From contig JAHBTN010000019.1 in NCBI GenBank assembly GCA_019638575.1, positions 1 to 64,000 on the forward strand: a stretch of 64,000 nucleotides of DNA, given 5' to 3'. Origin of the DNA: Ferruginibacter sp. (GTDB lineage: Bacteria > Bacteroidota > Bacteroidia > Chitinophagales > Chitinophagaceae). This document shows, one piece after another, positions 18,557 to 37,522 of this stretch. The notes beneath the pieces are model-generated. The model was not told the DNA's origin. It searched no databases and worked only from the letters and a program-made list of their open reading frames with translations. The position numbers and the translations under genes are program-made. How positions within the stretch are numbered: the stretch's first letter is position 1; the number at the start of each line of letters is the position of its first letter.

Positions 18557-18973
18557 TCAGATGGCCGGGTAGTCAACAAAATTTCTTTCGGTTTCGTATA
18601 GCCGAACCTGCAGGTCTAACTTCGGTTCTATCTTTTCCCTTAAAATTTTGTATATAACAATTGCAATGTTTTCGGCTGTAGGGTTAAGATTTTTAAACTC
18701 AACCGTATCATCATTTAAGTTTTTATGATCAAACCGTTCAATTACATTTTCCTGAACAATGTCGCTTAATAATTTCATATCCATAACATAGCCGGTAGCT
18801 GCATCAGGCTCGCCTGTTACTTTAATAACCAATTCGTAATTATGGCCGTGAAAATGCGGGTTATTGCATTTACCAAAAACTTTCTGATTGGTTGTTTCAT
18901 CCCATGCAGGATTGTTAAGCCGATGGGCTGCATTAAAATGCTCTTTACGGTAAACGGCTACTCTGTTGCTCAT
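18557..18973 (-). CDS. 6-pyruvoyl-tetrahydropterin synthase / QueD family protein, copy 1
   Basis: A 138-residue T-fold enzyme that acts on dihydroneopterin triphosphate. Zinc ligands are His17 (HFNAAH), His42 and His44 (HGH); the catalytic Cys36 is in GKCNNPHFHGHNY, and LYETERNFVDY gives the conserved Glu. The C-x5-HGH spacing is that of eukaryotic-type PTPS rather than the C-x3-HGH of E. coli QueD. It could therefore make 6-pyruvoyl-tetrahydropterin or 6-carboxy-tetrahydropterin (queuosine), and sequence alone does not decide. It is the first gene of a PTPS-folE unit with its own promoter (19033-19060). Confidence 0.88.
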   Translation of the reverse strand: MSNRVAVYRKEHFNAAHRLNNPAWDETTNQKVFGKCNNPHFHGHNYELVIKVTGEPDAATGYVMDMKLLSDIVQENVIERFDHKNLNDDTVEFKNLNPTAENIAIVIYKILREKIEPKLDLQVRLYETERNFVDYPAI

Positions 18974-19118: not shown

Positions 19119-19529
19119 TCAATCGCCATAATACTCTACAAAAATCCTGGGTGTTTCAGATAATTTAAGGCAATGCAACTTTACTTCGGCAGGCAGGTGT
19201 GGTGTAAGTTCGTTCCAAATTCCAATCACAAGGTTTTCAATAGAACAAAGTTTTCCTTTCATAAAATCAACATCCACATTCAGGTTTTTATGATCAAGTT
19301 TATCAATCACATGTTCTTTAACTATTACACTCAGTTTTTTTACATCATAAACAAAGCCGGTATCTGCATCTGGCTCGCCTTTAAGGGTAACAAATAGCTC
19401 AAAATTATGGCCATGCCAGTTTTCATTGGCACATTTACCAAACACTTCCTCATTTTTTTCCCTGCTCCATGCCGGGTTAAATAATTTATGAGCCGCATTA
19501 AAATGTTCTATCCTGGTAATGTAAACCAT
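19119..19529 (-). CDS. 6-pyruvoyl-tetrahydropterin synthase / QueD family protein, copy 2
   Basis: A 136-residue paralogue of copy 1, placed just upstream in the same direction. The start at 19529 (MVYITRIEHFNAAH) aligns with copy 1; an upstream in-frame start would add 41 residues with no family match. Zinc ligands His14, His39 and His41, catalytic Cys33 in GKCANENWHGHNF, and the C-terminal Glu in LSETPRIFVEY are all kept. The two copies share about half their residues in the core and differ in the C-terminal third (DFMKGKLCSIENL versus EFKNLNPTAENI), so they probably have different substrates or products. Confidence 0.87.
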   Translation of the reverse strand: MVYITRIEHFNAAHKLFNPAWSREKNEEVFGKCANENWHGHNFELFVTLKGEPDADTGFVYDVKKLSVIVKEHVIDKLDHKNLNVDVDFMKGKLCSIENLVIGIWNELTPHLPAEVKLHCLKLSETPRIFVEYYGD

Positions 19530-19602
19530 CAATAATTTAAAAATTTCGGCAAAGGTAACTTCTAAAACCTGAAATATGAAGCGTAAATACGAAATTTGTA
19601 AA

Positions 19603-20232
19603 ATGCAAATCCTGGTTATTGCCGCAACCGAATTGGAAATTAAGCCGTTCATAGAAACAGCTTCAGCAACCGATGTACTTATTACAGGCGTTGGGGTTCC
19701 GGCGGTTTTATATCACCTGCAAAAAAGGATGCAGCAGATAGATTACGACCTTATTATACAAGCCGGTATTGCCGGCACATTCAACAAAGCTGCTAAACCG
19801 GGCGAGGTTGTTTTTGTAAAGCAGGATACGTTTGGCGATATTGGCATGGAAGAAAAAGAAAATTTTGTTTCCATTTTTAATAGCGGCCTTGCTGATAAAA
19901 ATGAATTTCCTTTTACGGGTGGCTGGCTTATTAATACCCAGGGAATGAATATGCAAATGAACCTGCAGGCTATTAAAGCAATAACAGTAAATAAAGTAAG
20001 CGACAGTGAATTGCAAAAGCAGCAATATATAAACAATTTTAATGCAGATATAGAATCGATGGAAGGCGCCGCTCTTCATTATATATGCCTGCAGGAAAAT
20101 ATACCTTTCATACAGTTACGATCCATATCTAATATTGTGGGTGAAAGGAACCGGGATAAATGGATGATGAAAGAAGCTATTGAAAATTTAAATATACAAT
20201 TACAACAACTGACTAAAAATTTAAACGGTTAA
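19603..20232 (+). CDS. mqnB: Futalosine hydrolase
   Basis: About 209 residues from the ATG at 19603 (MQILVIAATELE); an upstream in-frame ATG at 19576 would add nine residues. It has the nucleoside-phosphorylase fold, with IQAGIAGTFN, PGEVVFVKQDTFGDIG and the ESMEGAALHY nucleobase/ribose motif. It cleaves (dehypoxanthine) futalosine in the futalosine route to menaquinone. The next gene, nine bases downstream, is mqnD, two steps of the same pathway, which makes this assignment firm over other purine nucleosidases. Confidence 0.92.
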   Translation: MQILVIAATELEIKPFIETASATDVLITGVGVPAVLYHLQKRMQQIDYDLIIQAGIAGTFNKAAKPGEVVFVKQDTFGDIGMEEKENFVSIFNSGLADKNEFPFTGGWLINTQGMNMQMNLQAIKAITVNKVSDSELQKQQYINNFNADIESMEGAALHYICLQENIPFIQLRSISNIVGERNRDKWMMKEAIENLNIQLQQLTKNLNG

Positions 20233-22891: not shown

Positions 22892-23557
22892 TTATTCAAT
22901 AAGTTTATTTCGCATTCCGTACATGATTAACCCTCCAATAGTTTTAGCATCTACTTTGTTTTTCATGTTTTGCCGTATAGTTTCTATTGTACGTGGGCTT
23001 AAAAAAATAATTTTAGATATTTCTTCTGTTGTTTTATCATCTGCTAACAACCTTAAAATTTTAATTTCTTTTTCGTTAAACTGAACCGGCAAATTGCTGC
23101 CATAATGCTGCCGCACATTCTTTTTTTGCATCAACTTACCCATAACTGCCTTATTTACCAGGTCGTTAAAGTAAAAATCATCATTCATGCAGGTAAGTAT
23201 AGCTTCGTAAATTTCCTCGGGATCGGTGTTTTTGGTAAGATAGGCATTAGCACCCATTTCCATCATTTTACTAATCATCTGCTGGTCATCGTACATAGTA
23301 AGTACAATAATTTTAATATCCTCATATTCTTTACGAATTAGCTGTATGGCATTAATTCCATCAACTTCAGGCATCCTAATATCCATTAAAAGCACTTCGG
23401 GCTTTTTTATTTCTATCTTATGCATCATATCCTTTCCATCTTCGGCTTCCCAAAGCATTTTAAGGTTTTCTTTACCGGATAATGCCATTTTTATACCATC
23501 CCTGAAAATTTTATGGTCATCGGCAATTGCAATTTTGATAAAAGCATTGGTATTCAT
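22892..23557 (-). CDS. NarL/FixJ-family response regulator 2
   Basis: 221 residues from the ATG at 23557 (MNTNAFIKIAIADDHK); extending three codons upstream would require a TTG start. Receiver domain with Asp59 in LMDIRMPE (numbered from this start), then a LuxR-type helix-turn-helix (LSPRTIETIRQNMKNKVDAKT). It closely resembles regulators 1 and 3 in both domains. A ~1 kb gap with a candidate ncRNA separates it from the divergent membrane-protein/kinase operon. Confidence 0.93.
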   Translation of the reverse strand: MNTNAFIKIAIADDHKIFRDGIKMALSGKENLKMLWEAEDGKDMMHKIEIKKPEVLLMDIRMPEVDGINAIQLIRKEYEDIKIIVLTMYDDQQMISKMMEMGANAYLTKNTDPEEIYEAILTCMNDDFYFNDLVNKAVMGKLMQKKNVRQHYGSNLPVQFNEKEIKILRLLADDKTTEEISKIIFLSPRTIETIRQNMKNKVDAKTIGGLIMYGMRNKLIE

Positions 23558-23821
23558 AGAAAGCAATAATGGGGGTTAGTAAAATAACTTGCCTAAGTTA
23601 CAAATTTTAGTTTCATTATGATTATTTTAACAAGGATTTTATCTTGATATTTTTTTTAGCTTATTGATTCTCAAATAAATCGGTTTTTTTACTTAGTAAA
23701 TATACCTGCTAAATTATACGGTAAACTACGTATGCCTATTGCACTTGTACTTTAAATTAAAGTAATTGCAACAAGATTAAAATAGGGCGATTATCCTCTT
23801 TTTTTAGCTATGTATACACAA

Positions 23822-23829
23822 TACTTTTG
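23822..23829 (+). promoter_or_regulatory. -7 promoter element of the candidate ncRNA
   Basis: TACTTTTG matches TAnnTTTG exactly. The expected start of transcription, six or seven bases beyond the box, coincides with the first base of the long inverted repeat at 23835. A TTG at the -33 position is not evident. Confidence 0.5.
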
Positions 23830-23835
23830 TACTAG

Positions 23836-24037
23836 TTGATTGACATAGGTAGAGTAAATATTTATATCCAACTATCCAATTAAACGTAAGGAACAAATCC
23901 AATTATCCGGTTAAAAACCTTGTTTGTGCTTATGATACCTATTGTCAATCAACCCTTTTAAGTTCCCGCTTTATCTCCAATAAATCACCAGGAAAATTTT
24001 TTGTTGCTGTTTGTAAAATATACAAACAGCTTTTTTT
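23836..24037 (+). ncRNA. Candidate structured noncoding RNA (~200 nt)
   Basis: A non-coding unit in the 1-kb gap between regulator 2 and the kinase operon. It has its own -7 box, a long near-perfect inverted repeat (GTTGATTGACATAGGTA at 23835-23851 with TACCTATTGTCAATCAAC at 23936-23953) that would pair the 5' end with a region about 100 nt later, and a perfect intrinsic terminator at 24006-24037. No open reading frame of useful length lies in it on either strand. The inner ~85 nt hold two near-identical 15-mers built from ATCCAA/TATCC words (23865-23879 and 23896-23910) and a small GGTT/AACC hairpin. The layout recalls 6S-like or regulatory RNAs, but I could not match it to a known family. 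Confidence 0.55.
24006..24037 (+). terminator. Strong intrinsic terminator of the candidate ncRNA
   Basis: GCTGTTTGTA (24006-24015), loop AAATA, TACAAACAGC (24021-24030), then seven T. The 10-bp stem is perfect. The T-run lies on the plus strand only, so it stops rightward transcription; no annotated gene on that strand ends upstream of it within 2.9 kb, which implies an unannotated transcript. Confidence 0.85.
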
Positions 24038-24165
24038 GCTTATTTTAGCACACGTTGCTTAAGTTAACAAGCAGGTAAATCTCCCACCCCATAAGCCGGG
24101 TTTCCCAATTAAAAGGTTATTAACATTCGTAAGAATACTGTGGATAACTACTATATTTGTAAATA

Positions 24166-24197
24166 GTAAATTTACGGTAAAGTAATCGTAAATTTAC
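24166..24197. promoter_or_regulatory. Twin GTAAATTTAC palindromes
   Basis: The perfect 10-bp palindrome GTAAATTTAC occurs at 24166-24175 and 24188-24197, 22 bp apart start to start (two helical turns). A TATATTTG promoter box lies just upstream (24152-24159). A related TTTTACGGTAC word lies before regulator 3 (about 26174-26183). The spacing suggests cooperative binding of a dimeric regulator, plausibly one of the NarL-type proteins encoded here. The rest of the gap to 24574 (AT-rich) shows nothing else I can support. Confidence 0.5.
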
Positions 24198-24574
24198 CTC
24201 AAAATGACAGGTTATTTTACGTTTTTTTAGCTTGAAACCCTTACCTGTTCTGCATTTTATGGAAAAATAACGACTGTTTACCAGGATTAGGGGTTTTTAC
24301 TGGAAGGCTTTTAATGGAAGTTTACATCACCTAGAAACAATATTTACTTTAGAAACCTTAAAACTATTTTGTTATGTTATCAGGTGTATTTGAAGTTTTG
24401 GAAGAATGCTTCGCTTGTATTTTTAGCGACTGCTAATATATATTTTTGAATGTAAAAACCAATGGTTATTTTTGATAAAACAACCATTTTACCATTTTAC
24501 AGAATCTTAAATATATAACTTACGTAGCTGAACTTTTACCCTTTTTTCTTTGCCTCATCTTTTATAAAAGATTG

Positions 24575-25204
24575 GTGAGTAAGGAAAAAAGGGTGTTTTT
24601 TATTTATACCTTCTTGATTGCTATACTAGTTATAATTGGGTTTAGCCTATTGTATATCCTTGATTCTAAAGAATCTTACTATCTAGCAGCAAGATTTTAT
24701 ACAATTTTAGAATATACTACTCTTGCTTATTTTTTCTCTCTATACATAAAAAGAAAATTCGTTAACAAACTCTTACTTTTTTCAATTGGTGCTTACTTTG
24801 TTTTTTGTGTTTACAGTTATTTAAAACAAAAAACACCTGAAATGCCTTTTATACCGGTTAGTGTAGAGCATGTGCTTTTATTAATATTTATATTATATTA
24901 TTTTTTTGAAACTATACAAAACTTAACTACCGAGCCCGTTTACCAAAAAGCCATATTTTGGATAAGCGTGGCATTTATCATCAACTCTGCAGGAAATTTC
25001 TTTTTATTCCTATATTCAAAAAACAGTTTTAATGATGATACATTTAAAACACAATACACAATTATATATTCTACAGTAACTATACTAAAAAATATATTGC
25101 TTTGTATTTCAATACCTATTAATGAAAGCCCCAAGAAATCAATTATTGAAGAAACGCTTAATATAGATTTAGATCCATTTAAACCCATTAAGCAAAACCC
25201 TTAA
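24575..25204 (+). CDS. Multi-pass membrane protein upstream of the kinase (possible sensor)
   Basis: About 209 residues, mostly hydrophobic, with roughly six transmembrane helices (near VFFIYTFLIAILVIIGF, LEYTTLAYFFSLYI, LLFSIGAYFVFCVYSYL, HVLLLIFILYYFF, IFWISVAFIINSAGNFFLFL and TILKNILLCISI). No ATG is available: the frame opens with TTG directly followed by GTG at 24575, the more likely start. A short cytoplasmic tail ends the protein. It sits 13 bp before a histidine kinase that has only one membrane helix and no sensor domain, so this protein may supply the sensing part (inference). I do not recognise the family. Confidence 0.78.
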   Translation: MSKEKRVFFIYTFLIAILVIIGFSLLYILDSKESYYLAARFYTILEYTTLAYFFSLYIKRKFVNKLLLFSIGAYFVFCVYSYLKQKTPEMPFIPVSVEHVLLLIFILYYFFETIQNLTTEPVYQKAIFWISVAFIINSAGNFFLFLYSKNSFNDDTFKTQYTIIYSTVTILKNILLCISIPINESPKKSIIEETLNIDLDPFKPIKQNP

Positions 25205-25217
25205 CAGCAAACCTAAT

Positions 25218-26039
25218 ATGTTTTTTTTACAGGCTAATGGAACGGGGATAACAACTACTTTATTTGCAGGCACAATGGGCATGCTTACACTTGCTATTAC
25301 CATAGTTGTATTTGTTATCTTTCATCAACGCAAAGTATTGCGGTATAATAATCTTTTAAAAAAGGCTGAAGAAGAAAAACAAAAGATTCTTTTAAATGCT
25401 TCTATCCGTTTCCAGGAAGAAGAACGCAACCGCATTGCTGCCGACCTGCATGACGATGCAGGCCCATTACTGGCTACGGCAAGGCTTTACCTAAACGAAA
25501 ACCTGGTTAACCAGGATAAAGTGCAACAATTGCAAAGCATTTATAGTGCTAAACAAATTTTAGACGATGCCATTTTGCTGATACGCAACATCAGTCATAG
25601 CCTAATGCCCCCAACGCTTAAAAATTTTGGCTTGGAGAGTGCGGCAGTAGATGTTTTTCAAAAAATGAATGCAAGCGGAAAAGTACATGCCAGTGCACGT
25701 TTTCACGATTACCGCACAAGGCTTAAAACAGAACAGGAATTACTTGTTTTTAGGGTGATACAGGAAATTGTAAGCAATATTCTTAAACATAGTAACCCCG
25801 GCTTTATACATTTAACGCAAAATGTAAATGCAAATAAAATGTACTTTAGGGTACATCATGATGGCGTAGGAATAGTACAGGATGAATATGAAAAACTAAG
25901 CCATAATGCCCCGGGATTAGGATTAAAAAACATAGCAAGCCGCATAAAAGTGCTTAGGGGCGATATCCTTTACGAAATTGATGCCAGTAAAACCTATTAC
26001 AAGGTAACCATTGAAGTACCTATGTTACCGCTGATATAG
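25218..26039 (+). CDS. Sensor histidine kinase, NarX/DegS (HisKA_3) type
   Basis: A 273-residue kinase with one membrane helix (about 14-36), a short coiled linker, a HisKA_3 dimerisation domain with ERNRIAADLHDDAGP (phosphoacceptor His78) and a HATPase domain with N-box QEIVSNILKHS and G2 APGLGLKNIASRI. The G1 box reads HHDGVGI: the position of the usual adenine-contacting Asp is His214. There is no extracytoplasmic sensor, which fits a partnership with the upstream membrane protein. Family members phosphorylate NarL-type regulators, three of which lie within 4 kb. Confidence 0.92.
   Translation: MFFLQANGTGITTTLFAGTMGMLTLAITIVVFVIFHQRKVLRYNNLLKKAEEEKQKILLNASIRFQEEERNRIAADLHDDAGPLLATARLYLNENLVNQDKVQQLQSIYSAKQILDDAILLIRNISHSLMPPTLKNFGLESAAVDVFQKMNASGKVHASARFHDYRTRLKTEQELLVFRVIQEIVSNILKHSNPGFIHLTQNVNANKMYFRVHHDGVGIVQDEYEKLSHNAPGLGLKNIASRIKVLRGDILYEIDASKTYYKVTIEVPMLPLI

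Positions 26040-37448: not shown

Positions 37449-37522
<74 letters not shown>

Follow-up and report, generated by a model that had tools for sequence, protein, structure and literature searches.

A candidate small RNA gene

Does the gap between the regulator and kinase genes of a signalling cluster in Ferruginibacter sp. hold an RNA gene of its own, and if so, what might that RNA do? The gap lies in a 64,000-nt stretch of DNA, referred to as the window, and a preliminary description had placed in it an undescribed noncoding RNA with its own promoter, a long stem and a terminator. At the sequence level our results support this description, and the locus has the appearance of a genuine small RNA (sRNA) gene, so far uncatalogued, that belongs to a multi-copy family of the Chitinophagaceae. 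The features referred to below are as follows.

22892..23557, minus strand: divergent response regulator gene adjoining the RNA, of LuxR/NarL type as read from its sequence
23785..23802, plus strand: degenerate copy of a palindrome found upstream of the relatives (consensus GnGCAATnnTGCTCTTG; alignments of 33 and 182 units)
23822..23829, plus strand: -7 promoter box TACTTTTG, present in the window and kept in the family alignments
23834..24037, plus strand: predicted small RNA gene of about 204 nt (promoter, terminator, fold, relatives; both ends predicted)
23835..23851, plus strand: 5' arm of the closing stem (predicted fold, inverted repeat, pair counts)
23866..23908, plus strand: four AUCC motifs in the loop, starting at 23866, 23874, 23897 and 23905
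23923..23931, plus strand: UUUGUGCUU, invariant in the nine sequences of alignment A2
23936..23953, plus strand: 3' arm of the closing stem (predicted fold, inverted repeat, pair counts)
24006..24037, plus strand: intrinsic terminator, a perfect 10-bp stem and seven T (terminator scan, repeat search)
24572..25204, plus strand: membrane protein gene 3' of the RNA, read from its sequence
25218..26039, plus strand: histidine kinase gene, read from its sequence

The promoter box, which we take to be of the Bacteroidota TAnnTTTG type, was found exactly where it had been claimed, and five bases separate its end from the closing stem, so that transcription would start at about 23833-23835. What had been described as a 17/18-bp inverted repeat is, in the predicted fold, a stem of 17 bp with one bulge, 11 bp of which form a perfect inverted repeat (23835-23845 with 23943-23953). 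The terminator was also recovered as claimed, with its hairpin at 24006-24030 and seven T up to 24037, and it is the single terminator-like site in 23560-24600 when both strands are scanned (shuffles predict 0.5). No upstream gene on the plus strand needs it, as the regulator is on the minus strand and the plus-strand ORFs are short and antisense, and the ORF layout confirms the position between the regulator and kinase genes. The fold predicted for 23830-24040 has an energy of -43.1 kcal/mol compared with a shuffle mean of -29.3 (sd 4.0, n = 200; z = -3.5), and 1 of 200 shuffles folded equally well. The longest complete ORF within the RNA has 15 codons. With a promoter and an intrinsic terminator of its own and no clear sign of coding, the locus has the sequence features of an independently transcribed intergenic sRNA.

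The term "undescribed" is also supported. With Rfam 15 at the gathering score, no family matched the RNA region or any other part of the window except for a tRNA at 37449-37522, and none matched 20 related loci (the FopS model was not singled out by name in this search). Under relaxed limits one scan at the RNA gave 8 matches with E <= 10 and another scan 7 with E <= 1, all sub-threshold and to unrelated families, which we took as chance. None of the papers listed in a literature search, which covered few subscription journals, describes this RNA.

A multi-copy family in the Chitinophagaceae

With a query of 261 bases, matches were obtained in 12 of 59 genomes, the genome under study included. 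Three of these matches are confined to the 3' part of the query and were left out, and in the nine sequences used (alignment A2, the window and eight relatives) the promoter and the stem are kept while the loop diverges; in one of them, L009, promoter and stem lie on the opposite strand. The covariance model R1, built from these nine sequences, matches 25 of the 396 genomes examined from the order, the genome under study included. When fetched and oriented by their promoters, the matches proved to be mostly units of the same kind, with a few exceptions such as L027, a simple tandem repeat which accounts for a 40-bit match outside the family, in genome G377, and was rejected. Genome G417, which like G377 comes from another family of the order, matched R1 at 32 bits.

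A second model (R2) comprises 33 units, each with 66 bases of upstream DNA, and its tallies count genomes that supplied training sequences. At E <= 0.001 it matches 51 of the 59 sampled genomes of the genus, with 1-7 copies in each (40 of 42 among those of good quality), and 166 of 394 sampled genomes of the family, representing 46 of 101 genera, in a scan that scored at most six candidates per genome. The genome under study has two strong copies, that of the window (116 bits) and a second at C9:52002-52182, which scores 118.5 bits although it is absent from the training set; four further matches of 20-24 bits were left uncounted. In a phylum-wide scan of 395 genomes (E <= 0.01) only 10 matched, seven in the family with strong scores and just three outside it with weak ones (28-34 bits), the large-batch scans having strict filters by which weak matches are lost.

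A scan of named genomes with the pattern TTTGTNNCAGAAGTTGATTGAT gave at least 118 stretches, of which 116 of 118 were confirmed by R2, L158 and L192 being those without an R2 match. Among the matches listed, the genus names are ones which we take to belong to the Chitinophagaceae, the exception being a single Bacteroides record, L158. Cultured hosts with a match to R2 include Flavisolibacter ginsengisoli DSM 18119 and Niastella yeongjuensis DSM 17621. Spread by phages was considered and rejected: two viral contigs carry the pattern's 20 specified bases, and neither matches the full model at E <= 0.01.

From 234 R2 matches, 19 were dropped as antisense echoes of the palindrome or as scoring <40 bits, and removal of identical cores reduced the remaining 215 to 198 units. 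The pattern from promoter to stem failed in 14 of these 198, and TTTG is still present in 13 of the 14. Multiple units lie close together in 35 loci, and the tandem units examined by eye each repeat the palindrome, the promoter and the terminator. In a typical unit, a palindrome that overlaps the -33 region precedes a TAnnTTTG box, which is followed by a 5' stem and a chain of AUCC motifs poor in G. The multi-copy family, the AUCC chain of the loop and the palindrome conserved upstream in the relatives all go beyond what the preliminary description had proposed.

The closing stem and its alternatives

A covariance check of the stem in relatives had been suggested, and in the 33 sequences four pairs of the closing stem have changed on both sides, which none of 500 shuffles matched. 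The count of pair types is unexceptional, being reached by 150 of 500 shuffles. The main change is between C-G (14 sequences) and U-A (19 sequences), a difference that largely separates two classes of unit and may represent a single event. In a wider, model-fitted alignment (124 distinct rows, including a few of the dropped matches) the stem is near-invariant, with 98.1% of cells paired. The best reading, which is supported by these comparisons, is an independently transcribed, undescribed RNA, because the promoter and stem recur jointly in relatives while the loop diverges, because one stem pair varies between C-G and U-A, and because no Rfam family matches at threshold.

Class I, to which the window belongs, carries AGTTGATTGACA, and UUUGUGCUU is invariant in its nine A2 sequences. 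Class II carries GAAGTTGATTGATA, often with a second, internal copy of the complement, which gives the 5' end a choice between a local hairpin and the closing stem. Sorted by pattern, the units comprise 162 of class II, 11 of class I and 8 others. Folding of the first 45 nt surpasses that of shuffles (z < -1.5) in 134 of the 162 class II units and in 0 of the 11 class I units. When whole units are folded, the closing stem prevails in 155 of 162 and in 11 of 11, respectively. The local hairpin shows only weak covariation: two of its pairs have changed on both sides, a number that 120 of 500 shuffles also attain. In a class II example, L049 1501-1679, pairing of the 5' end with the internal copy and pairing with the 3' end are mutually exclusive, and two such exclusive folds could act as a switch.

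The closing stem and the length of about 200 nt resemble 6S RNA, in which paired ends enclose an open middle, and a structural, polymerase-binding RNA of this type was therefore considered. We judge it highly improbable: the model RF00013, to which the genome-wide search was confined, gave 0 matches in the genome under study at E <= 10 and was positive in 8 of 14 control genomes, the 8 Rfam matches (E <= 10) at 23700-24200 include no 6S family, and several copies per genome with AUCC-chain tails are unlike 6S RNA.

Upstream palindrome and terminators

Upstream of 182 units the consensus reads AAAATnGnGCAATnnTGCTCTTGT and precedes the TTTG box by about 20 bases; its TTG presumably sits at the expected position of a -33 element. 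The degenerate copy in the window likewise overlaps the -33 promoter region. The exact sequence RGCANNNNTGCTCTTG occurs 10 times in six genomes, all in three of them, and 0 times in the other three, the genome under study included. Six of the 10 sites are at promoters of the family, and the other four are not followed by a family RNA. As a control, the pattern was reversed, and in this form it occurred once in the six genomes.

In the 162 units with at least 450 bases of downstream sequence, to which the search was restricted, intrinsic terminators were found within 750 nt in 74, compared with 5.2 expected from Markov-sampled controls. As loops >10 were disallowed, some terminators were missed (L150). 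The distance from start to terminator ranges from 145 to 582 with a median of 288. Conservation of the terminator, which the preliminary description had named as a check together with that of the stem, fared less well than that of promoter and stem, as its place differs among the class I relatives: in the set of 15 regulator-type units the window's terminator is clean, and some others have candidates placed elsewhere.

The tails of some family RNAs contain a tandem repeat, 54 nt long in L043, in which a segment resembling GCCTATGCYNTAAAAAGCGATGATGGC could form a bulged hairpin; this segment is found in 30 of 184 units, in up to 7 copies. The tail repeats are located as follows.

L043 1286-1447: tail repeats of the second copy in the genome under study
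L150 540-780, 1220-1370 and 1800-2110: tail repeats

Genomic neighbourhood

A gene resembling cystathionine beta-synthase (name read from the sequence) lies upstream of 98 of the 198 distinct units, a substrate-binding-protein gene lies downstream of 7 further units without that upstream gene, a regulator or kinase of the window type is beside 11, and none of these three contexts applies to 82, all of these shares being biased because many loci were fetched by the class II pattern. Judged by eye, seven of the 82 adjoin a protein resembling another response regulator, and three lie upstream of a receiver-type protein.

The regulator of the window is kept in 46 of 59 genomes of the genus (E <= 1e-90), and the best 30 of the 46 matches were fetched. 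The preliminary description had expected the RNA to persist where the flanking genes do, which is so in part: promoter and stem are present in 13 of the 30 loci, that of the window included, where the RNA is divergent from the regulator and 270-359 bases from a motif near the regulator start. They are absent from the other 17 of the best 30 loci, three of which have <710 bases of upstream sequence on the contig. The membrane protein gene is still found in 13 of these 17, which makes the tie to the signalling cluster a loose one. The RNA is optional beside the regulator, and its variable presence suggests that the unit has been gained or lost at this place.

These data bear on two further explanations. 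A role in cis, as leader or attenuator for the membrane protein and kinase genes that follow, would agree with the position of the RNA, which is on the same strand and upstream of 24572, but a strong terminator is followed by 534 bases to the next gene and similar RNAs lie beside unrelated genes elsewhere, so that we regard this explanation as improbable. The terminal inverted repeats, the several copies per genome and the presence or absence at one locus could also describe a mobile, MITE-like inverted-repeat element that is no RNA gene. To this we give the least credence: the promoter and palindrome are conserved outside the repeat, different genomes show the same flanking genes, whole transcription units are repeated in the tandem copies, and the stem has compensatory changes.

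Two other features of the region were noted in passing. Two facing copies of GTAAATTTAC lie at 24166-24197 of the window, between the RNA and the downstream genes, and similar CGTAA/TTACG palindromes, which can be seen close to several loci of the family, may serve as a binding site for a transcription factor. The minus-strand ORFs 18557-18973 and 19119-19652 are neighbouring and similar, both with HFNAAH near the start, and by eye look like a duplicated gene of tetrahydropterin synthase type.

The AUCC motif

Motif counts were taken over the 74 RNAs with a terminator (both ends predicted), which are not independent, since motif positions are shared by descent. ATCC occurs at 27.4 per kb inside these RNAs, compared with 4.9 upstream and 5.2 downstream, and GGAT at 1.0 per kb; ATCC exceeds GGAT in 74 of 74, and the G content is 12%. 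Each RNA has on average 7.3 ATCC, compared with 2.5 in dinucleotide shuffles, and at most 17. In 65 tails past the stem, ATCCA and TATCC are the top 5-mers. The window RNA has 4 ATCC (1.2 expected) and 3 TATCC, the latter reached by 20 of 5000 shuffles, and the second copy in the same genome has ten ATCC ahead of its terminator.

A small peptide was rejected as an explanation, the coding signal being inconsistent: in the 74 RNAs, ORFs starting with ATG are shorter than in shuffles (15.6 compared with 22.0 codons), and those that also allow GTG or TTG starts are slightly longer (37 compared with 30).

An alternative that we consider possible, if doubtful, is a family of base-pairing sRNAs, the UCC-rich stretches or the class I UUUGUGCUU pairing with mRNAs near their start codons and repressing translation as FopS and GibS do in Bacteroides, perhaps with RRM proteins helping or opposing. 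The same phylum has a multi-copy sRNA family that is reported to act in this way (PMC11697453). Among class I sequences, UUUGUGCUU shows no variation (9 of 9) and does not belong to the consensus pairs. Against this, UUUGUGCUU is partly paired in the minimum-energy fold of the window RNA itself, and its complement TTGGAT is not enriched at -45..0 of 690 gene starts (8 seen, 8.2 expected); TGGAT was seen 20 times (20.1 expected) and GGATA 23 times (16.2 expected). These gene starts come from the fetched loci and not from whole genomes, and a small number of targets would stay invisible in them. One other motif, AACCAA, reached 1.4 per 1000 positions at -30..-3 of genes compared with 0.2-0.7 in other bins, and was dropped because it is outside the top 20 5- or 6-mers at -30..-3.

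A proposed protein sponge

Many spaced copies of a short motif fit titration better than a single seed. We favour, with a probability of about 0.5, a process in which the RNA is a sponge for an AUCC-binding protein, following the logic of CsrB and RsmZ with a different protein. One regulator acting on the common palindrome would control most copies. In each transcript the 5' end would be held in the stem, and a G-poor, largely unpaired AUCC(A/U) chain would run to the terminator. Once the promoters fire, the chain would bind several copies of a single-strand RNA-binding protein, which would so be withdrawn from mRNAs. Candidate partners would be the three RRM-domain proteins matched in the genome, natural candidates because the RRM protein RbpB is reported to bind an sRNA family in Bacteroides (PMC11697453). 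The window copy, next to a divergent response regulator gene and not far from a kinase gene, would let the signalling system feed the RNA pool, and the tandem repetition of units would fit a dosage role. It counts against the sponge that the window copy carries just four AUCC motifs; AUCC could instead be a pairing seed.

More tentatively, we suggest that the Chitinophagaceae may possess a CsrA-independent sponge circuit, made up of co-regulated and tandemly amplified AUCC-repeat RNAs with one copy beside a two-component system. To our knowledge, post-transcriptional control in Bacteroidota beyond Bacteroides has been little explored. With up to seven copies per genome, a repeated motif and a palindrome of its own, the family offers a defined entry point: the AUCC motif is usable as bait for the missing RNA-binding protein and the palindrome as bait for the regulator.

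Comparison with known systems

CsrB/CsrC and RsmY/RsmZ are RNAs with many exposed copies of a short motif, paralogues, intrinsic terminators and a possible link to a response regulator. The family described here shares with them the repeated short motif, the paralogues within a genome, the terminators and the possible response-regulator link, but differs in its motif, which is AUCC and not GGA (27.4 ATCC compared with 1.0 GGAT per kb). A search for CsrA (PF02599) gave 0 matches in the genome under study at E <= 0.1; of 14 control genomes, 3 were positive, including E. coli and B. subtilis. With 6S RNA the family has in common a closing stem formed from the two ends around an open middle; the lack of an RF00013 match, the several copies and the AUCC chain set it apart.

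PMC11697453 describes a 14-member sRNA family of Bacteroides thetaiotaomicron that is bound by RbpB, which prefers single-stranded regions. In FopS, according to the same paper, a single-stranded 5' stretch with the seed is followed by a terminator hairpin, and the structure is said to be deposited in Rfam. FopS and GibS resemble the present RNAs in forming a multi-copy sRNA family of Bacteroidota in genomes with RRM proteins, while the 5' end of FopS, single-stranded and carrying the seed, differs from the 5' end predicted here, which is held in a stem and followed by a short, repeated motif.
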